Source of the DNA: Candidatus Binatia bacterium | GTDB lineage: Bacteria > Vulcanimicrobiota > Vulcanimicrobiia > Vulcanimicrobiales > Vulcanimicrobiaceae | Direction of reading: 5' to 3' | Assembly (NCBI GenBank): GCA_035544215.1 | Contig: DATKHY010000007.1 | Span: forward strand, 682,001 to 746,000 | DNA: 64,000 bases | Shown: one piece after another, positions 22,688 to 32,673 of the stretch | How positions within the stretch are numbered: the stretch's first letter is position 1 | Layout: each line of letters starts with the position of its first letter | Position numbers and translations under genes: made by a program | Notes under the pieces: generated by a model | Database searches by the model: none | What the model was told of the DNA's origin: nothing | What the model saw: the letters and a program-made list of their open reading frames with translations, nothing else

Positions 22688-23509
22688 ATGCGGATCCTGA
22701 TCACCAACGACGACGGCATCGACTCGCCCGGAATTCGCGCGCTGACGGACGCGCTCGGCAGCGAGCACGCGACCGTCGTCGTCGCGCCGTCCGGCAACCG
22801 CAGCGGCGTGTCGCACGCGATCACGGCGGACGAGGCGATCACCCTCGAGCGCCGCGAGGATTGCGGCGTGCTCGCGTACGCATGCTCCGGAACGCCCGCC
22901 GACTGCGTCTTCCTCGGGTCGACCGAGCTATGCCCACGCCCCGACCTCGTCATCAGCGGCATCAATCACGGGCCAAACCTGGCCGACGACGTGTACTATT
23001 CCGGAACCGTCGCAGGCGCCGTGGAAGCCTCGCTGCTGGGGATCCCCGCGCTGGCGGTCTCGCTGGCGTGCGATCACGCGGTGCCGCTCGGGCGACGCTA
23101 TTGGGAGAGCGCGGCGGAGATCGTACGGCGCTGCATCGCGGCCGCGTTCGACGGCTTGAGCGACACCACGCGCTACTGCAACTTGAACGTCCCCAACCTG
23201 CCCCTGGAACAGATCCACGGCGTCGCCGTTACGCGTCTGGGCCGCAAACGCATCTGCGGCCGGATGGTCGGCCAAGAAGGCGACGGCACTACGCGCTACT
23301 ACCGCGCCTGGGAGTCGCCCTTCGAAACAGACCGCGAAACGATCGGCACCGACATCGGCGCCGTGCACGCCGGTTACGCGAGCCTTACACCGCTCTTGCT
23401 CGACCGCACCGCTCCGGTAACTCCGTCGTTGGATTGGCTGCGCCTCGGCAGCCTTCGCCCGGTAAATTCAGCGACCGGCGCGAGCCGGCGCATCAGATTC
23501 TCGAACTGA
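22688..23509 (+). CDS. surE: 5'/3'-nucleotidase SurE
   Basis: Metal-dependent nucleoside monophosphate phosphatase of stationary phase. The metal site is clear: ILITNDDGIDSPG, then VVAPSGNRSGVSH and ISGINHGPNLADDVYYSGTV. It is 273 residues, about 15-20 longer than usual, because the C-terminus runs on into the end of the convergent DAHP synthase gene (136-base overlap). ATG with MRILITNDDG start, eight bases after msrB. Confidence 0.93.
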   Translation: MRILITNDDGIDSPGIRALTDALGSEHATVVVAPSGNRSGVSHAITADEAITLERREDCGVLAYACSGTPADCVFLGSTELCPRPDLVISGINHGPNLADDVYYSGTVAGAVEASLLGIPALAVSLACDHAVPLGRRYWESAAEIVRRCIAAAFDGLSDTTRYCNLNVPNLPLEQIHGVAVTRLGRKRICGRMVGQEGDGTTRYYRAWESPFETDRETIGTDIGAVHAGYASLTPLLLDRTAPVTPSLDWLRLGSLRPVNSATGASRRIRFSN

Positions 23510-24321
23510 TCGCAATCGAGCGATTGCGCGCCGTCCGAGAGCGCGTTCGGCGGATCGGGATGCACCTCGATGAGCAGCCCGTGCGCTCCCGCGGCTAGGC
23601 TGGCGATCGCGATCGGCGGCACCAGCCGCGCGATGCCCATCGCATGCGACGGATCGACGATCACCGGGAGATGCGTCATCTCATCCAGCAGCGGCACGAC
23701 CGAGATGTCGAGCAGGTTACGCGTCGCGACGTCAAAGGATCGCACGCCACGCTCGCAGAGCACGACGCCCTCGTTGCCTCCGAGGAGCACGTATTCCGCG
23801 GCCAACAGCCACTCTTGCACGGTCGCCGAAATGCCGCGTTTCAACAGCACGGGCATGCGCGTCTGACCGACCTCGCGCAGCAGCGGGAAGTTCTGCATGT
23901 TGCGCGCACCGATCTGCAGCATGTCGGCGTAGCGCGCGACCTTCTCGACGTCGCGCGGATCGAGCACCTCGGTCACGACGCCGAGGCCGTAGCGATCGCC
24001 CGCGTAGCGCAGCAACTTGAGCGCCTCTTCGCCGAGGCCTTGAAACGAATACGGCGACGTGCGGGGCTTGTAGGCGCCCCCGCGCAGCACGTTTGCGCCG
24101 GATTGCGCGACGCTGCGGGCCGCGGTCTCGAGCTGTTCGCGCGATTCCACGCCGCAGGGACCGGCGCAAATCGCGACCTCGTCGCCGCCAAACGTCGCAC
24201 CGCTGCGCAACCGCACGACCGTCCGCTCCGACCGCGCGTCACGCCGGACCAGGCGGTACGATTGCGGTACGTTTACCCCTCGCTCCACCTTCCTCGCTTC
24301 GACGAACCCTCGGCGCCTCAT
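23374..24321 (-). CDS. aroF: 3-deoxy-7-phosphoheptulonate (DAHP) synthase, type I beta
   Basis: First enzyme of the shikimate pathway, joining phosphoenolpyruvate and erythrose-4-phosphate. AICAGPCGVESREQL, VLRGGAYKPRTSPYSFQG, MLQIGARNMQNFPLLREVG, LLKRGISATVQEWLLAAEY and VIVDPSHAMG are all conserved. The protein is 315 residues; its last 26 residues (RRSQSNDGVTG on) exceed the family core and overlap surE. There is no chorismate-mutase-like regulatory domain. It is divergent from, and less than 60 bases away from, the ketoacyl synthase/EPSPS-like operon, so it plausibly feeds that pathway with shikimate. Confidence 0.92.
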   Translation of the reverse strand: MRRRGFVEARKVERGVNVPQSYRLVRRDARSERTVVRLRSGATFGGDEVAICAGPCGVESREQLETAARSVAQSGANVLRGGAYKPRTSPYSFQGLGEEALKLLRYAGDRYGLGVVTEVLDPRDVEKVARYADMLQIGARNMQNFPLLREVGQTRMPVLLKRGISATVQEWLLAAEYVLLGGNEGVVLCERGVRSFDVATRNLLDISVVPLLDEMTHLPVIVDPSHAMGIARLVPPIAIASLAAGAHGLLIEVHPDPPNALSDGAQSLDCDQFENLMRRLAPVAEFTGRRLPRRSQSNDGVTGAVRSSKSGVRLA

Positions 24322-24378: not shown

Positions 24379-25605
24379 GTGAATCAGGCGGCAGTGGAGC
24401 ACGTTGCGGTCACCGGAGTGGGAGTGGTTTCGCCGATAGGCTATACAGTCGAGTCGTTCTGGCGCAACTTGCTGGACGGGAGGCGCGCGATCGCACCGAT
24501 GGGCAATGGCGCGCGAGTCTCCGGCAACGCGCTGTGGGCGGCGGTTTCCGACGACTTCTTAGAGCACACGGGGCTCCCGCCGGGAGCGCTGCGCAACACC
24601 GATCGTTTCACACAGTACGCGATGGTGGCGACCGCGGCGGCGCTGCGCCGCGCGCGCTACGATCCTCCTGCCGAACGCACTGCGGTCATCATCGGCAACA
24701 CGATGGGCGGCTTTCCTCTCGTCGCGGATTCGCAGACACGCTTCGCCGAGGACGGCGGGCGCGCCGTCAGCCCAAAGCTGATGGCTCTCGTCATACCTAA
24801 CATGGCGAGCGCGTTCATCGCGATGCACTGGAACCTGCACGGCCCGCAGCTCGCGATCAGCACGGCGTGCGCGTCATCGCTCGACGCGATCGGTCTGGCC
24901 TCGGGAATGATCGAGCGCGGCGAGATCGACGCAGCGATCGCCGGCGGCAGCGAGACGCTCCTGAGCCCGCTGGTGTACGAGAGCCTCGTGCGCGCCGGCG
25001 CGCTGTCGCGCAACTCGGACGCCGACCGCGCGTCGCGGCCGTTCGACGTCGATCGCGACGGCTTCGTGATGGGCGACGGCGCCGCCGTGCTCGTGCTCGA
25101 GCGCGCGGAGCTGGCCGCGGCGCGAGGAGCCGAAATTCTTGCCCGCATCCGCGGATACGGATCGGTCGCGGACGGCTATCACATCACGTCGCCCGATCCG
25201 TCGGCAAAGTACGAGGTGATCGCAATGCGCAACGCGCTCGACCGCGCCGGCGACGCGGCGGAGGCCTGCCATGTGGTGTACGCGCACGCGACGGGAACGC
25301 TCGTGGGCGACGCCGCGGAAGCACGCGCTATCGACGGCGTCTATGCCGGCGACGGTGCAGTCGTCACGTCGATCAAGGGCCACATTGGACACAGCATGGC
25401 GAGCTCGGGCGCGATGTGCGCGATCGCGGGAATCGCGGGCATGCACGATTCGCTGATACCCCCGACGGTCGGAACGGAGCGGCTCGATCCTGCGACGCGC
25501 TTCGATCTGGTCAGGGCGCGTGCGCGCGCCCATTCGTATTCGGCCTTTCAAGTCAACGCCTTCGGCTTCGGCGGACAGAACGCGTCGCTCGTCGTATCAA
25601 GGTAG
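24379..25605 (+). CDS. Beta-ketoacyl synthase, FabF-like (stand-alone)
   Basis: A 408-residue condensing enzyme. It has the FabF-like triad: cysteine in AISTACASSLDAIG, histidine in VVYAHATGTLVGD and histidine in IKGHIGHSMASSG. The N-terminus VAVTGVGVVSPIGYTVESFW and the C-terminal FQVNAFGFGGQNASLVV are typical. No acyl carrier protein gene is nearby. It is the first gene of a tightly spaced operon with an EPSPS-like/CoA ligase fusion, and a ribosome-site-like TAGGACG precedes the next gene. In context I infer that it primes or elongates a chain from an unusual acyl-CoA. The GTG start is favoured over a TTG nine bases upstream. Confidence 0.88.
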   Translation: MNQAAVEHVAVTGVGVVSPIGYTVESFWRNLLDGRRAIAPMGNGARVSGNALWAAVSDDFLEHTGLPPGALRNTDRFTQYAMVATAAALRRARYDPPAERTAVIIGNTMGGFPLVADSQTRFAEDGGRAVSPKLMALVIPNMASAFIAMHWNLHGPQLAISTACASSLDAIGLASGMIERGEIDAAIAGGSETLLSPLVYESLVRAGALSRNSDADRASRPFDVDRDGFVMGDGAAVLVLERAELAAARGAEILARIRGYGSVADGYHITSPDPSAKYEVIAMRNALDRAGDAAEACHVVYAHATGTLVGDAAEARAIDGVYAGDGAVVTSIKGHIGHSMASSGAMCAIAGIAGMHDSLIPPTVGTERLDPATRFDLVRARARAHSYSAFQVNAFGFGGQNASLVVSR

Positions 25606-25612
25606 GACGCCG

Positions 25613-28600
25613 ATGAATCTCCTCGTCAAAGGAACGAGCGGACCGCTGACCGGCGAGGTCGAGGTTCCGAACTCGAAGTACCACGCGCACCGCGCGCTCA
25701 TCCTTGCGTCGCTTGCTCAAGGCACGAGCCGGATTCGCGGCCTGTCCGATGCGCGTCACGTGCAATACACGATGGACGTGCTGCGCGCGCTCGGCACGAA
25801 GATCGAAGTGGACGGTCAGACGTTGGTGGTCAGCGGCGGCCCCTATCACGTGAAACGCAAGGTCGTTTCGGTCGGTAGCTCCGGTTCGACGCTCTATTTC
25901 ATGATCGGTCTCGCGGCGCTCGCGGACGCGCCGATCACGCTGACCGCACAGAAGTACTTCCGTCGCCGTCCGGTCGGACCGCTCCTCGACGCGCTCGCGC
26001 ACATGGGCCTGCGTTTCGAATCGGCACGGGGGTGTCCGCCGATTGCGATCGAGCCGGGAAGGCCGCGCGGCGGGACGATCGTCATCCCCGGAACGCTGTC
26101 GCAGTGGATTTCCGGCCTGCTGCTGCTCGCGCCGTTCGCGCGGGAACGGACCGTGATCGAGGTCGAGGGCGAGCCGAACGAGCGGCCGTACATCGCGCTG
26201 ACGGCCGAGATGATGCGCGAGTTCAACCTGCACGTGCGCATCGCGCCCGACTTCCGGCGCTTCGAGGTGGAACCCGGTCAGACCGCGCGTCCCGCGACCG
26301 TCGAGCTCCCGCCCGACATCGGCTCAGCGGCGTTCGGACTCGCCGTTACCGCGATCCATCCGTCCGACGTGCTGTTCCGCGGCCTGCAGAAACTCCCAGG
26401 TGAGCTGCCGGATCATCCCGAGGGCGCGTTCTTGGACATCGTTGCCGATATGGGACTGCCGATGGCGTACGACGCGCACGCGCACGCTGTGCGGGTCCGG
26501 CATGACGGCATCGAGCTGCGCGCCGTGCACGTCGACTGCCGCGACATTCCCGACATGCTGCCGATCCTCTCGACGCTCGGCACGTTCGCTCGCGGCGAGA
26601 CGGTCCTCGAAAACATCGAGCACGTTCGCCTCAAGGAGTCGGATCGGGTCGCAGCGATGCTGCAGCTCAATCGCATGGGCGGCCGGCTCGAGCTCCACGC
26701 CGATCGTCTCGTCGTTCACGGCGTGTCGCAGCTCTTCGGCGCGAAGCTCTCCTCCTTCAACGATCACCGGATCCTGATGTCGCTCGCCGTCGCGGCCTCG
26801 CGCGCCGAGGGGCAGAGCACGCTGACCTATCCGAACGCGTATCGCATCTCGTATCCGCGCTTTCTGGATGCGATGCGCAGCATCGGCGTTCCCATGTCGA
26901 TCACCGACGGACCGGCGAACGGTCGTCACGACAAGCCAAAACCGCTTCTGTCGATGCTCAAGCCGGACCGCGCTGCAACGCTGACGCTCCCCGAGCTGCT
27001 GATCCGGCACGCCGGCGAGTCGCCGATGGAGCTGGCCGTGGTCGAGGCGCGCGACGGCGGCGACGCGACGCTCACGTGGGCGGAGCTGCGCGACAGGGTC
27101 GACCGCACGGCAATGTTGCTGCTGCAGCTCGGCGTGCGCCCGGGCGAGCCCGTCGCGTTCCAGCTGCCCAACTGCATCGAATTCGTTATCGTCGCGCTCG
27201 CGACGCTGCGAATCGGAGCGATCTGCTGTCCGCTGATGCCGATCTTCCGCGAGCGCGAGGTCGCCTTCTGCCTGCGGCGCTCGCGCGCGCGCGTGCTCTT
27301 CGTCCCGGACGAGGCGCGAGGCCGCCGGCACGCCGCCGAGATCGCCGCGATGCTCATCGAAGCCGCGGCCTTCAGGGGCAACCTGCCGCTGCAACTCGAG
27401 CACGTCGTCGTCTCGACGAGCGGCCGTCGGACCCATTCGCTTCCCGCGCCCGACAACGCCGACGGATCGGTGCAGTGGCTCCGCTTTCAAGAGGCGTTGG
27501 CGAACGTCGAAATCGACGCCGGGCTCCTCGACGCGCGGGGGGCCGCGCCGACCGCGCTCGCGCAGCTGCTCTTCACGTCGGGGACCTCGGGCGAGCCCAA
27601 GGGCGTGCTGCATCGCAACGACGTCTTGATGCGCGCCGCCGCGATGGAAGTCGAACACCTAGGGCTGTCGGGCGACGATCGAATCTTCGTTCCATCGCCG
27701 CTCGCGCATCAAACCGGTTTCCTGTACGGAATGTGGCTCGCGATCGTGATGGGCGTCCCTCAGATCCTGCAGTCGGTCTGGGACGCCCCGCGCGCACTCC
27801 GCGCGCTCAACGACTGGGACGGGACGTTCGTGCAAGCCGCGACTCCGTTCTTGGCCGACATGGTCAAGGCCGTCGAGGACGGTAACCGTCCGCCCGCGGC
27901 TCTGCGCATCTTCGTCGCCACCGGAGCGGCGGTGCCGCGGGGGCTGGCCGAACGGGCTACGCGCGTCCTGGGCACCGCGGTGTGCGGCGCGTGGGGCACG
28001 ACCGAGTCGTGTCTCGGGTCCCTCTCCGCGCCCGGGGACGAGGCCGCCAAGGTGTGGGGCACGGACGGCCGCGCGCTGCGCGGCATCGGCCTGCGCATCA
28101 CCGACCCGCAGGGACGCTCGCTTCCGGCCGGAGAGGAGGGCCACTTCGAGGTCCGCTCGCCGACGATGTTTGAGGGGTACGCCGACCATGCCGACTGGAC
28201 GGCGTCGGCGTTCACGAGCGACGGGTGGTTCCGAACCGGCGACCTCGGCGTCATGGACGAGTCCGGTTATATCCGCATCACGGGGCGGCTGCGCGACGTC
28301 ATCAATCGAGGCGGCGAAAAAATTCCCGTCGCGGAGGTCGAGCAGCTGCTCGGAGATCACCCCGCGATCGACGACGTCGCCATCGTTGCGATGCCGGACG
28401 CGCGACTCGGCGAGCGCGCGTGCGCGTTCGTCGTGCTGCGCCAGGGCGCGGGGCTCGATTTCGACCGGATGCAGCACTATCTCGACGCCTGCCAGGTCGC
28501 GAAACACTACTGGCCCGAGCGGCTCGAGATCGTGAACGAGCTGCCGCGAACGCCGTCCGGCAAGGTGCAAAAGTACGTACTTCGCGAGCGCGCCAAGAGC

Positions 28601-28639
28601 TTACGTCCGTCCCCGCGAGTCAAGGAGAAGATTTCTTGA
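25613..28639 (+). CDS. EPSP synthase-like/AMP-dependent acyl-CoA ligase fusion (AnsJK/PlmJK-like)
   Basis: One 1008-residue frame. Residues 1-435 are a 5-enolpyruvylshikimate-3-phosphate synthase fold: [49 protein letters not shown] (Lys341, Glu342, Arg345) and FNDHRILMS. Serine 23 of AroA is a tyrosine, and the PEP-binding arginine of GNSGTxxR is Tyr95 in GSSGSTLYF. Residues 450-1008 are an adenylate-forming ligase: [33 protein letters not shown], the [14 protein letters not shown] hinge and catalytic lysine in TPSGKVQKY. No stop or start lies between the domains. In Streptomyces cyclohexanecarboxyl-CoA genes these domains are adjacent or fused, so I infer activation and dehydration of shikimate-derived acids. 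Confidence 0.9.
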
Positions 28640-29811
28640 AACAACTCGAGCGCGCCGGCGTCTTCGACGAGGCCTCGTTCGCGCGTTTGAAGGAAGAGAT
28701 CGCGGCATACGTCGCGGGCCCGGCGGAAGCGTGGGCGTCGCGAATCGAAGCGGAGAGGCGCGTGCCCCTCGAGCTCTGGGACGAACTGCGCGCGCGCGGC
28801 TACCTCTCGCTGGCTGCGCCCGCGGCATACGGCGGCCGCGAGATCCCGTTCCTACGGTACTTGGAACTCATCGAACTCTTCTCGATGTCGCACGCATCGG
28901 TCCGCATGATCGTGCACGTCGTCAACGGCACATGGCGCGCCATGGATCGCTTTGCGACGCCGGAGCAGCGCCGCAAATTCGTCATCCCGTCGGTCAAGGG
29001 CGAAATCAAAATCGCCTTCACGCTGACCGAGCCGACCGCTGGAACGGGCGCGGATCTGCGTTGCAGCGTCGTGCGCGAGGGCGAAACGTACTACCTGAGC
29101 GGCGAGAAGCACCTCATCACGTTCGGGACGATCTGCGATCACTGGCTGCTCTTCGCGCGCACGGCCGGAACGCGCGGGGCCGAAGGTACCGTCGCGCTCC
29201 TCGTCGACCGGAACGCGCCGGGCGCCACCGTGACCGCCATGGAGGAGTCGATGGGCGTGCGCGGCACCGATCACGCGCGCCTGAGCTTCGATCGCGCGCC
29301 GGTTCCCGTCGCGAATCGGCTGGGAGCCGAAGGCGACGGATTAGCGGTCGCGCTCGGCGGATTCCTGACACCGAGCCGCATCTCGGTGGCGATGAGCTGC
29401 GTCGGATTGGCGCGGCGCGCACAGGACCTGGCTATGGCGTACGCCGCCAGACGCGAGACGTTCGGCAAGAAGCTCGAGCAGCGCCAGGCGATCCGCTTCA
29501 TGCTTGCCGAGAACGCTACCGACATCGAGGCGGCGCGGCAGCTCGTGCTTCACGCCGCGCGGCGGTGGGAAGCCGGCGCAGCGGATGCCGCGATGCTCTC
29601 TTCGATGTCGAAGCTGCAGGCCGTCGAGATGCTGACCCGTGTGACCGACAAGGCGCTCCAGATCCACGGCGGGATCGGCTTCTGGCAGCCGAATGCGATC
29701 GAGCGCGTCTACCGCGACGCGCGTGCACAGCGTTTCGAAGAGGGGACGAACGAGATTCAGAAGACCGTCATCGCCCGCGAGCTCATCGACGGCGGAGGAA
29801 GGGATACGTGA
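28636..29811 (+). CDS. Acyl-CoA dehydrogenase family protein (AnsL/PlmL-like)
   Basis: 391-residue FAD flavoprotein. [63 protein letters not shown] and [14 protein letters not shown] are the usual acyl-CoA dehydrogenase blocks, with the catalytic glutamate in FEEGTNE. The start is TTG, overlapping the ligase stop as TTGA, with a strong AAGGAGAAG ribosome site five bases before it. That site also shows the true start is not downstream. In the proposed cyclohexanecarboxyl-CoA route it would act on a cyclohexenyl-CoA intermediate; a beta-oxidation role is the alternative. Confidence 0.92.
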
Positions 29812-30611
29812 AACGCTTCGAAGCGAAGGTATCGCTCATCACCGGCAGCTCACGCGGAATCGGCCGAGCGTTGGCGCTCACGCTCGCGCGTGAAGGCGCT
29901 TCGGTGGTCGTCAACTACCAGCGCAACGCCGAGATGGCGGAGCAGGCCGTGCGTGAGATCGAGGCGCTGGGCTCGCGCGCGATCGCCGTGCAGGCGAACA
30001 TGGAGAGCACCGAGGATATCGATCGCCTCTTCGAATGCGTCGACGCAGAGTTCGGACGCCTCGATCACTTCGTTTCCAACGCCGCCGCCAGCTCGTTCAA
30101 GAAGATCGCCGACTTGAAGGCGCACAACCTGGACCGCTCGTTCGACCTCAACGTCCGTGCCTTCGTCCTGGGCGCGCAGCGCGCCGTCAAACTCATGAAG
30201 CGCGGCGGCCGGATAGCGGTGCTCTCAAGCTATGGGAGTATCCGCGCGTACCCGACGTACGCGAACCTCGGCTCGAACAAGGCAGCCATCGAGGCGTGGG
30301 TCCGCTACATGGCCGTGGAGTTCGCGCCGGGCGGCATCAACGTCAACGCCGTCAACGGGGGGCTCATCGACACGGAATCGTGCGCGTACTTCTATCAAAA
30401 CGTCGCGGGCATGGCCCCGATCGAGTCCGTCCTGTCCAAGATCCCGAAGGGCCGAATGGGTACTACGCAAGAGGTCGCCGACACGATCGCGTTTCTGCTC
30501 GCGCCGGAGTCCGAGTACATCACCGGCCAGACGATCCGCGTGGACGGCGGCTTGAGCGTGATCGCTCCGCCGTTTTACGCCGACGTGTCTCCGCCGCTTT
30601 CGCTCAGCTAG
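29808..30611 (+). CDS. SDR enoyl reductase, FabL/ChcA-like
   Basis: 267-residue short-chain dehydrogenase/reductase. The cofactor motif is [13 protein letters not shown] and NAAA follows. The catalytic pair is YANLGSNK, a Y-x6-K arrangement typical of enoyl reductases (FabI/FabL) rather than ketoreductases (Y-x3-K). [14 protein letters not shown] and [12 protein letters not shown] are FabL-like. I therefore infer reduction of an enoyl thioester, as in 1-cyclohexenylcarbonyl-CoA reductase (ChcA). The GTG start overlaps the dehydrogenase stop (GTGA), with GGAGGAAGGG just upstream. Confidence 0.9.
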
Positions 30612-30624
30612 GAAGCTCTCAGGA

Positions 30625-32673
30625 GTGGCATCGAGCGACTCGTTCGCGCACGCACTCCGCCCGGGCACGATCGGCGGGCTGGCGCTGCGCAATCGCATCA
30701 TCATGGGCTCGATGCACATGGGCATCGAGTCCGACGGTCCCGCCCTCGCGGCGTTCTACGCCGAACGCGCGCGCGGAGGCGTCGGGCTGATCGTCACGGG
30801 CGGATCCTCGGTGAGCCGCGTCGGCGCAGGCGGCTGCAACTACAGCTTCGTCAACGACGCGGATAGCGAACCGGCGCTTCGCGCGGCGGCCGAGGCCGTG
30901 CACGACGCCGGCGGGCGCATCGCCTTGCAGCTGTTCCACGCCGGTCGATACGCGTACTTCGCGTCGTTCGGGCTGCAGCCCGTCGCTCCGTCCGCCGTCG
31001 CATCGCGCTTCTCCCCCGACCCGCCGCGCGCGATGGACGATGCCGACATCCGCGAGACGATCGGCGACTTCGCGCGCGGGGCAATCCGCGCTCGCGAGCT
31101 CGGATTCGACGCCGTTGAGGTGATGGCGTCGGAGGGCTATCTGCTCAACCAGTTCCTTTCGCCGCTCACCAATCGGCGCGACGACTTCTGGGGTGGCGAT
31201 CTCGAACGGCGGATGAATCTCCCGCGCGCGGTGCTGCGCGAGATCCGAGCCGGCGTCGGCCGCGATTTTCCCGTGATCTTCCGCATCTCCGGCGCCGACC
31301 TGATGACCGGCTCCACGACGCAAACCGAGACGCTGCGCTTCGCGACCGCGCTGGCATCCGACGGCGTCGACGCGCTCAACGTCGGCATCGGTTGGCACGA
31401 GTCGTCGATACCGACCGTGCAGCAGATCGTGCCGAGCGGAGTCTGGGTGCGCTTCGCCGCCGCCGTCAAGCGCGCCGTGGGCGACCTGCCGGTGATCGCC
31501 AGCAATCGCATCAGCAGCCTGGCCGCCGCGGAAGACGTACTCGCCGCGGGCAGCGCCGACTTCGTCTCGATGGCGCGGCCGTTTCTGGCGGACGCTGCGA
31601 TCGTCGCCAAGTCCGCGCAGCCGCAGCTGGTCAACACCTGCATCGCTTGCAACCAGGCCTGCATCGACCAATCTCTCATCGACGCGCCGGTTTCGTGCAT
31701 GGTCAACCCGCGCGCCGGGCGCGAGCGCGAGTTTCCGGAGATTCCGGTGCCCGCAGATCGGGCGCGCCGGTTCGCTGTGATCGGCGGCGGACCCGCCGGA
31801 ATGGAGGCCGCCCGTGCTCTCGCGGCGCTCGGTCATCGCGTCGAGCTGTTCGAGGCCGACGGCGAGCTCGGCGGCCAGTTTCGCATGGCGCGTCGGATTC
31901 CGGGAAAGCGCGACTTCGGCGAGACGATTCGTTACTTCGCGAACGAGCTGCCGCGTCTAGGCGTCGCGCTTCGCCTGAACCGGCGCGTCGCCGGCGCCGC
32001 GGCGCTGCGCGGCTTCGATGCGGTCGTGCTCGCGACCGGCGTCGTCCCGCGCGCCGCGCGCGTCGCCGGCAGCGATCTGCCGCTCGTCGTCTCGTACGCC
32101 GATCTTCTTCTGCACGATCCTGAAGTGGGCGAACGCGTGGCCATCGTCGGCGCTGGCGGCATCGGCGTCGACGTCGCGCACTACCTGAGTTTCGGCGAAT
32201 CCGACGTCGACGAGGGCACGCGCTTCCTCTACGAACAGGGCCTCGCCGCGCCGCCGGACGGTGCGCTCGTCGTAACCGGTCGAAAGCGCGTCGCGCTGAT
32301 GCGCCGCGGGGCGACGATCGGCGAGCGCATCGGCAAGACGACTCGCTGGGCCGTGCTGCGCGCGCTGCGAGCCGCGGGCGTCGAGAGCTACACGGGCGTC
32401 ACCTACGACGCCATAGTGTCCGGGGGCGTCCGTATCCGCGACGAGGAGGGCAACCGGCGAACGATCGCGGTGGACACCGTCGTCATCGCAGCGGGTCAGG
32501 AGCGCAACAACGCGCTCGTGCCGGAGCTTTCTGAGCTCGGCTTGCCTTATCGCGTCGTGGGCGGCGCCAAGGACGCCGCCGAGCTCAATGCGGTGCGCGC
32601 GTTCGACGAGGGCCTGCGCGCGGCATACGAGCTCTCCCGGGAGGTCCGCTCGGCAAGCCGGGCTCACGCATAG
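30625..32673 (+). CDS. NADH:flavin oxidoreductase, FadH/2,4-dienoyl-CoA reductase-like (AnsM/PlmM-like)
   Basis: 682 residues, the size of E. coli FadH. An N-terminal Old Yellow Enzyme barrel (RNRIIMGSMHMG, EVMASEGYLLNQFLSPLTN, DFVSMARPFL) is followed by the iron-sulfur motif CIACNQACIDQ with a fourth cysteine in SCMVNP, then FAD/NAD domains (AVIGGGPAGMEAARAL, VAIVGAGGIGVDVA). Such enzymes reduce 2,4-dienoyl-CoA. The GTG start has GGAAGCTCTCAGGA upstream, 13 bases after the SDR stop. It completes the five-gene operon; here a cyclohexadienyl-CoA would be the inferred substrate. The 3' end overlaps the convergent permease gene by 10 bases. Confidence 0.92.
   Translation: MASSDSFAHALRPGTIGGLALRNRIIMGSMHMGIESDGPALAAFYAERARGGVGLIVTGGSSVSRVGAGGCNYSFVNDADSEPALRAAAEAVHDAGGRIALQLFHAGRYAYFASFGLQPVAPSAVASRFSPDPPRAMDDADIRETIGDFARGAIRARELGFDAVEVMASEGYLLNQFLSPLTNRRDDFWGGDLERRMNLPRAVLREIRAGVGRDFPVIFRISGADLMTGSTTQTETLRFATALASDGVDALNVGIGWHESSIPTVQQIVPSGVWVRFAAAVKRAVGDLPVIASNRISSLAAAEDVLAAGSADFVSMARPFLADAAIVAKSAQPQLVNTCIACNQACIDQSLIDAPVSCMVNPRAGREREFPEIPVPADRARRFAVIGGGPAGMEAARALAALGHRVELFEADGELGGQFRMARRIPGKRDFGETIRYFANELPRLGVALRLNRRVAGAAALRGFDAVVLATGVVPRAARVAGSDLPLVVSYADLLLHDPEVGERVAIVGAGGIGVDVAHYLSFGESDVDEGTRFLYEQGLAAPPDGALVVTGRKRVALMRRGATIGERIGKTTRWAVLRALRAAGVESYTGVTYDAIVSGGVRIRDEEGNRRTIAVDTVVIAAGQERNNALVPELSELGLPYRVVGGAKDAAELNAVRAFDEGLRAAYELSREVRSASRAHA

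Follow-up and report, generated by a model that had tools for sequence, protein, structure and literature searches.

A fused EPSP synthase-like and acyl-CoA ligase protein as the likely entry enzyme of a shikimate-to-cyclohexanecarboxyl-CoA operon in Vulcanimicrobiota

Introduction

Enzymes that lead from shikimate to cyclohexanecarboxyl-CoA (CHC-CoA) have until now been known mainly from antibiotic-making actinomycetes. The closest described systems are PlmJK of the phoslactomycin cluster and AnsJ/AnsK, AnsL, AnsM and ChcA of the ansatrienin cluster, which belong to the CHC-CoA starter-unit pathway. From labelling work, the first step is expected to convert shikimate into a diene acid by net dehydration. 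Our literature search found no defined enzyme chemistry for this first step of the shikimate-to-CHC route. CHC-CoA is the starter of the phoslactomycin synthase (PMC9730843), and doramectin was made in Streptomyces avermitilis after transfer of a CHC-CoA gene cassette (PMC6164871). Labelled shikimic acid was absent from the C7N unit of ansatrienin, while it efficiently labelled the cyclohexane carboxylic acid moiety (PMC8788734). Omega-alicyclic acids make up about 60% of the membrane fatty acids in two Alicyclobacillus isolates (PMC10562698), and omega-cyclohexyl fatty acids are known from Curtobacterium pusillum (PMC3426160).

Here we analysed a stretch of 64,000 nucleotides from a Vulcanimicrobiota genome, referred to as the window. 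As in the PlmJK/AnsJKLM-ChcA systems, it encodes an EPSP synthase (EPSPS)-like protein and an acyl-CoA ligase (fused in PlmJK), an acyl-CoA dehydrogenase, a dienoyl reductase and an SDR enoyl reductase. The names J and K, borrowed from PlmJK, are used for the two domains of the fusion throughout the paper.

Results and discussion

The fusion gene and its operon

Positions 25613-28639 of the window (plus strand) form a single open frame of 1008 codons with 0 internal stops. At the local base composition, 1008 open codons would occur by chance with a probability of about 5e-10. The GC content by codon position was coding-like in both halves, and a composition-based gene caller gave the fusion the top score among all window genes. 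The following features were defined:

23374..24321, minus strand: DAHP synthase, divergent upstream neighbour in this genus (PF00793)
24379..25605, plus strand: accessory FabF-like beta-ketoacyl synthase, KAS (TIGR03150, 360 bits; start codon uncertain)
25613..26896, plus strand: J domain (residues 1-428) with EPSP-synthase fold, proposed to modify shikimate by net dehydration (PF00275, TIGR01356, AlphaFold2)
26897..26980, plus strand: linker between J and K, about residues 429-456 (core at 434-445 disordered in the full-length AlphaFold2 model)
26981..28639, plus strand: K domain, AMP-forming acyl-CoA ligase, about residues 457-992 plus tail (PF00501, PF13193)
28636..29811, plus strand: acyl-CoA dehydrogenase, ACD, putative AnsL-like role (PF00441/PF02770/PF02771)
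29808..30611, plus strand: SDR enoyl reductase, putative ChcA-like role (FabL match, Tyr-x6-Lys)
30625..32673, plus strand: 2,4-dienoyl-CoA reductase-type flavin/Fe-S enzyme, OYE, putative AnsM-like role (1ps9 match, four-Cys motif)

Residues 9-421 of J matched PF00275 (EPSP synthase) with 275.6 bits, and the NCBIfam aroA model TIGR01356 gave 311.9 bits, above its cut-off of 287.25. J domains of other Vulcanimicrobiota pass this cut-off as well, so that J runs the risk of being mislabelled as EPSP synthase in genome annotation. The AlphaFold2 model of the J domain had a mean pLDDT of 93, and its top PDB matches were liganded E. coli EPSPS structures (TM 0.87, 28% identity). In K, the PF00501 and PF13193 matches span residues 465-984, and the ligase motifs (P-loop, TTE, TGD) and the catalytic Lys984 are conserved. 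The top NCBIfam model for K was cyclohexanecarboxylate-CoA ligase TIGR03208, at 465 bits under the cut-off of 792. The full-length AlphaFold2 model showed two separately folded domains, with pLDDT < 50 at residues 434-445 and a pTM of 0.51.

The operon reads KAS-JK-ACD-SDR-OYE, all on the plus strand, with gaps of 7, -4, -4 and 13 bp; KAS thus ends 7 bp upstream of the fusion, and the acyl-CoA dehydrogenase gene overlaps the fusion by 4 bp. KAS scored 360 bits against TIGR03150 (FabF; cut-off 494), compared to 585 bits for the other FabF of the genome, and its Cys-His-His triad (C164, H303, H338) is intact. The acyl-CoA dehydrogenase remained under the cut-offs of both NF043006 and NF042972. 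For the SDR, the FabL enoyl-ACP reductase 3oic was the top PDB match with 191 bits (next match 143), well ahead of ketoreductases, and its Tyr-x6-Lys motif (Y151, K158) was found in 63/63 relatives. The flavoenzyme matched E. coli 2,4-dienoyl-CoA reductase 1ps9 over its full length (537 bits, top PDB match), and 60 of 61 aligned relatives have the motif C339-C342-C346-C358. ChcB, which acts as isomerase in the known pathway, has no counterpart in the operon; elsewhere in the genome, the enoyl-CoA hydratase/isomerase family has nine matches that could stand in for it.

The ligase and the acyl-CoA dehydrogenase score with AliA/AliB-type models, as they would if the operon served to degrade, and not to form, cyclohexanecarboxylate (ali/bad type) or another alicyclic acid. 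These scores, however, lie far under the cut-offs of the models (ligase 465 versus 792, dehydrogenase 194 versus 650), and BadH/I/K-type genes are absent from the operon. Moreover, a degradative route would call for neither an EPSPS-like enzyme nor two enoyl/dienoyl reductases, and relatives of the operon occur in antibiotic clusters. A degradative function is regarded as highly improbable.

The divergent DAHP synthase is probably the housekeeping entry to the shikimate pathway and not pathway-specific, since it is the sole PF00793 gene of the genome. A dedicated extra shikimate supply was ruled out on the same grounds, in a search restricted to PF00793, as distinct from class II DAHP synthases. 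Its gene (23374-24321, minus strand) and surE (22688-23509, plus strand) overlap convergently by about 136 bp. Similar overlaps of about 150 bp recur in the related loci L027, L028, L029 and L030.

Distribution of the JK family

One scan of 84,980 species genomes yielded 210 relatives, of which the best 80 were analysed. These 80 came from Vulcanimicrobiota (Eremiobacterota), Actinomycetota and several gammaproteobacterial MAGs. Within the genus, the fusion was found in 17 of 18 genomes; a few copies are partial at contig ends and one MAG copy is frame-broken. Across the phylum Vulcanimicrobiota it was present in 20 of 149 genomes, distributed over three genera. With the fusion carried by 17/18 genomes of the genus, by other genera of the phylum and by most actinobacterial relatives, it is real and not an assembly artefact. 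The initial annotation had described a continuous 1008-residue frame joining an EPSPS-like domain to an AMP-forming CoA ligase, and the open frame, the Pfam domains and the family-wide fusion all confirm this description.

The order J-K-ACD-SDR-OYE holds, across three phyla, in most of those 80 loci that are long enough to show it. In a sister family of the same order the five-gene block is intact while the genomic surroundings differ, which identifies the block as the unit. The other Vulcanimicrobiota and the gammaproteobacterial MAGs have, together with JK, a KAS of the same type (57 to 80% identity). Some actinobacterial loci have a FabF gene after the operon and show no PKS.

AroA is separated from the 80 J sequences, which make up a single clade (SH-aLRT 100, stem 1.95 changes per column). 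Inside the J tree, a quick tree calculated without bootstrap, each named phylum appears as one group. On this basis a recent gene transfer from actinomycetes was unsupported. Plasmid-borne relatives were likewise discarded, as the top-listed places match the ligase half only.

Several deviating arrangements were observed. J and K, fused in most relatives, are separate genes in gammaproteobacterial MAGs, in Herbiconiux solani and in a related Microbacteriaceae genome (L062, L065, L067, L086, L088, L095, L103, L113); separate J frames of the MAGs and of Herbiconiux solani measure 431 and 460 codons. In an Acidimicrobiaceae MAG (L057:6220-8100) the K match is split in two pieces inside one 1081-residue frame, which suggests an insertion within the ligase. 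Beside its regular JK (L049), Actinocatenispora comari encodes another J-like domain, located in a frame of 1017 residues (G150:C64:53451-54659; 259 bits, under the aroA cut-off), possibly a diverged paralogue of the fusion. Streptomyces endocoffeicus (L104:10001-11356) has a J gene of 452 codons alone, with neither K nor operon partners. Its neighbours include a LysR regulator and genes of sugar-acid type (hydroxyisobutyrate-dehydrogenase-like, SBD_N/NBD_C kinase-like, MFS), and it may point to J chemistry in the absence of CoA ligation.

Relatives in antibiotic-type clusters

In Streptomyces humidus (L064), four genes directly upstream of JK encode a DegT/StrS aminotransferase, a GFO/IDH oxidoreductase, a HAD phosphatase and a class II DAHP synthase. 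Of these, the phosphatase scores above the cut-off of the curated model TIGR01454, "AHBA synthesis associated protein" (352.9 versus 246.65). By protein family, the four genes correspond to RifK, RifL, RifM and RifH in a published list (PMC8788734). The loci of S. cinerochromogenes (L059) and S. seoulensis (L102), compared by gene size only, have near-identical gene sizes in the same order. An AHBA cassette beside the JK operon is the arrangement to be expected of an ansatrienin-type cluster, which these Streptomyces loci probably represent. A type I PKS adjoins JK in S. sioyaensis (L107), and two KASIII genes and an ACP gene adjoin it in Kitasatospora mediocidica (L072). Together, the AHBA-type neighbourhoods, the PKS and KASIII loci and the CHC literature anchor the operon as a shikimate-to-CHC-CoA module.

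Active-site residues of the J domain

For the residue comparison, the J domains of the best 80 of 210 relatives were aligned with 44 AroA sequences, including those of E. coli, of the window genome itself and of actinobacterial hosts. The E. coli AroA reference (427 aa) agrees with the PDB chain. Five replacements, given in E. coli numbering, were fixed in 80 of 80 J domains: Ser23Tyr, Arg100Tyr, Ser169Leu, Ser197Glu and Asn94Ser. Unchanged in all 80 were Lys22, Arg27, Gly96, Arg124, Gln171, Asp313, Lys340, Glu341, Arg344, His385 and Arg386. Ser23, Ser169 and Ser197 are contacts of shikimate-3-phosphate (S3P) in E. coli. The 44 AroA carry Ser at these positions, rarely Thr, Cys or Leu at 197, and the window J has Tyr23, Leu162 and Glu190 at these former phosphate-side positions. 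The PEP contacts in E. coli are Lys22, Gly96, Arg124, Gln171, Arg344, Arg386 and Lys411. With the exception of Lys411, none of them varies in J, and nearly all AroA share them. Loss of Lys411 was ruled out as a hallmark of J: the residue is Ile in J, but AroA vary as well (K 16, V 15, T 12 of 44). The charged residues of the PEP/glyphosate site of E. coli EPSPS are Lys22, Arg124 and Lys411 (PMC3411725).

The initial annotation had reported for the window J that Lys22, Arg27, Ser163-Gln164 and the KESDR and DHR motifs are kept while Ser23 is replaced by Tyr, all of which the alignment reproduces. It had further taken Tyr95 for the replacement of the PEP-binding arginine. Tyr95 is a real change, but it aligns with E. 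coli Arg100 (Arg in 44/44 AroA, Tyr in 80/80 J), and the PEP-site arginine, Arg124, is kept in 80/80 as Arg119 of the window J. Canonical PEP residues are thus present in J. The proposed picture of a lost PEP site and a retained S3P face has to be reversed, with the PEP contacts invariant and Ser23, Ser169 and Ser197 replaced, and a loss of enolpyruvyl transfer is not supported when the PEP contacts are retained in 80/80.

According to the alignment, J has lost the phosphate pocket for S3P, while the PEP side stands. With the phosphate-side contacts changed to Leu, Tyr and an acidic Glu, phosphate would be disfavoured; the substrate of J is therefore probably unphosphorylated shikimate, and PEP may still be used. 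A switch of the acceptor from S3P to free shikimate appears to be the better inference compared to a loss of enolpyruvyl transfer. The replacements Ser23Tyr, Ser169Leu, Ser197Glu and Arg100Tyr, seen together with a PEP site that is intact, yield a precise prediction on substrate and cofactor of J that can be tested.

The same fold, a score above the NCBIfam aroA cut-off and the retained PEP contacts would also be expected of an ordinary EPSP synthase, for example a second, glyphosate-tolerant AroA isozyme, fused to a ligase by chance. Against this, the three S3P contacts are replaced in every J member, and J is always accompanied by CoA-thioester enzymes and CHC-type clusters. Furthermore, the search for a second aroA proposed in the initial annotation was successful: the window genome encodes a canonical AroA at G000:C3:529629-530858, by which J was ruled out as the housekeeping AroA of the genome. 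A separate AroA was detected in 12 of 12 actinobacterial hosts tested and, incomplete bins excepted, a canonical AroA stands beside J in every host tested. We consider an ordinary EPSP synthase extremely improbable.

Proposed pathway

In our reading, the fusion is very probably the entry enzyme of a shikimate-to-CHC-CoA operon. The initial annotation had already pointed to an alicyclic acyl-CoA (PlmJK-like) pathway, a call supported by the genes of the operon, by synteny throughout the family and by neighbourhoods of ansatrienin type. Substrate, step order and product of the operon are predictions, and orthology to PlmJK/AnsJ is read from synteny. J would bind free shikimate instead of S3P and remove a ring hydroxyl in a net dehydration to a cyclohexadiene acid, which K would convert to the CoA thioester. 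The dienoyl-CoA reductase, the FabL-type SDR, the acyl-CoA dehydrogenase homologue and an unlinked isomerase would then strip and saturate the ring to give CHC-CoA. In this genus, the FabF-like ketosynthase of the operon would supply type II fatty acid synthesis with the cyclohexyl unit, resulting in omega-cyclohexyl fatty acids.

Two routes were considered for the chemistry of J. In the first one, the enolpyruvyl group of PEP would be transferred to a shikimate hydroxyl and subsequently eliminated as pyruvate. Isochorismate pyruvate lyase is a precedent for the loss of pyruvate from an enolpyruvyl ether. We lean towards this PEP-dependent route, as both the PEP contacts and the catalytic residues have been retained across three phyla; the loss of the Arg100 equivalent speaks against it, and we regard the chances as about even. 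In the second one, J would act within the same pathway as a cofactor-free lyase, with the EPSPS fold holding shikimate for direct loss of water (1,4-elimination) and no PEP involved, which comes near to the proposal of the initial annotation. The consistent exchange of Arg100 for Tyr speaks for such a lyase, and Glu190 and Tyr23 at the former phosphate-side contacts could serve as acid/base groups near a ring hydroxyl. The labelling work of Floss and Reynolds reportedly drew the classical pathway with a simple dehydration, which we also counted in its favour. A cofactor-free enzyme nevertheless leaves the retention of the remaining PEP contacts and of the catalytic Asp313 and Glu341, invariant over three phyla, unexplained. 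The cofactor-free route is quite possible, but falls short of being probable.

Product in this genus

The window genome encodes a housekeeping FabF (585 bits), the KAS of the operon (360 bits) and a single clear FabH. As no full ketosynthase domain turned up beyond the two of FabF type, the search revealed no modular PKS. A second FabF-like ketosynthase at the start of the operon and the missing PKS point to omega-cyclohexyl fatty acids, and we consider it rather probable that CHC-CoA feeds their synthesis in this genus. KAS is given this role tentatively, as FabF-type enzymes do not normally prime chains and FabH would be expected to accept CHC-CoA.

Alternatively, CHC-CoA could be made for a small polyketide-like or other specialised metabolite via the accessory ketosynthase. 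KAS diverges from FabF (360 bits versus the cut-off of 494), and relatives of the operon serve polyketides. Beside the operon of the window, however, PKS, chain-length factor, ACP and tailoring genes are all absent, the genome has only two full ketosynthases, and nearly all genomes of the genus keep the operon, as for a core trait. A specialised metabolite is therefore judged unlikely.

Omega-cyclohexyl fatty acids were reported as possible for Herbiconiux (PMC10011130), and one Herbiconiux species carries J among the surveyed loci (L103). Our literature search found no paper joining Eremiobacterota, cyclohexyl and fatty acid, and no lipid data for Vulcanimicrobiota. The predicted membrane lipid of this largely uncultured phylum could be sought in soil lipid extracts. 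If the prediction is true, the J family serves primary membrane biology in Vulcanimicrobiota. The full combination, in which J spends PEP as a dehydratase, placing the enolpyruvyl group onto free shikimate and expelling it as pyruvate, and an omega-cyclohexyl core membrane lipid is formed in this soil/permafrost genus, is put forward as a tentative and rather doubtful proposal.

Comparison with known systems

The system is real, conserved and coherent: in all likelihood the known CHC-CoA pathway, here in a phylum that is new for it and in a minimal setting that is new as well. In Streptomyces loci, the gene set shared with PlmJK/AnsJKLM-ChcA adjoins either AHBA genes or a type I PKS. Unlike these systems, the window operon occurs in Vulcanimicrobiota, has neither PKS nor AHBA genes, includes a FabF-like ketosynthase of its own and is kept across the genus as a core trait. 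With Alicyclobacillus and Curtobacterium pusillum it would share the omega-cyclohexyl product and the shikimate-derived CHC-CoA primer, here predicted from genes. As would be expected of an omega-cyclohexyl fatty acid producer, the window genome combines CHC genes with fatty acid synthase genes and has no PKS. J shares with AroA the EPSPS fold (TM 0.87), the PEP contacts and the catalytic Asp313, Glu341 and His385. It differs from AroA by Tyr, Leu and Glu at the phosphate-side contacts of S3P, by Tyr at Arg100 and by its separate clade. Enolpyruvyl transferases of the NikO/PolA type are enzymes of the EPSPS/MurA fold that were recruited to a new acceptor in specialised metabolism. J resembles them, by description, as an EPSPS-fold enzyme with a proposed new acceptor, which is free shikimate in our reading of J, whereas the NikO/PolA type acts on nucleotides.
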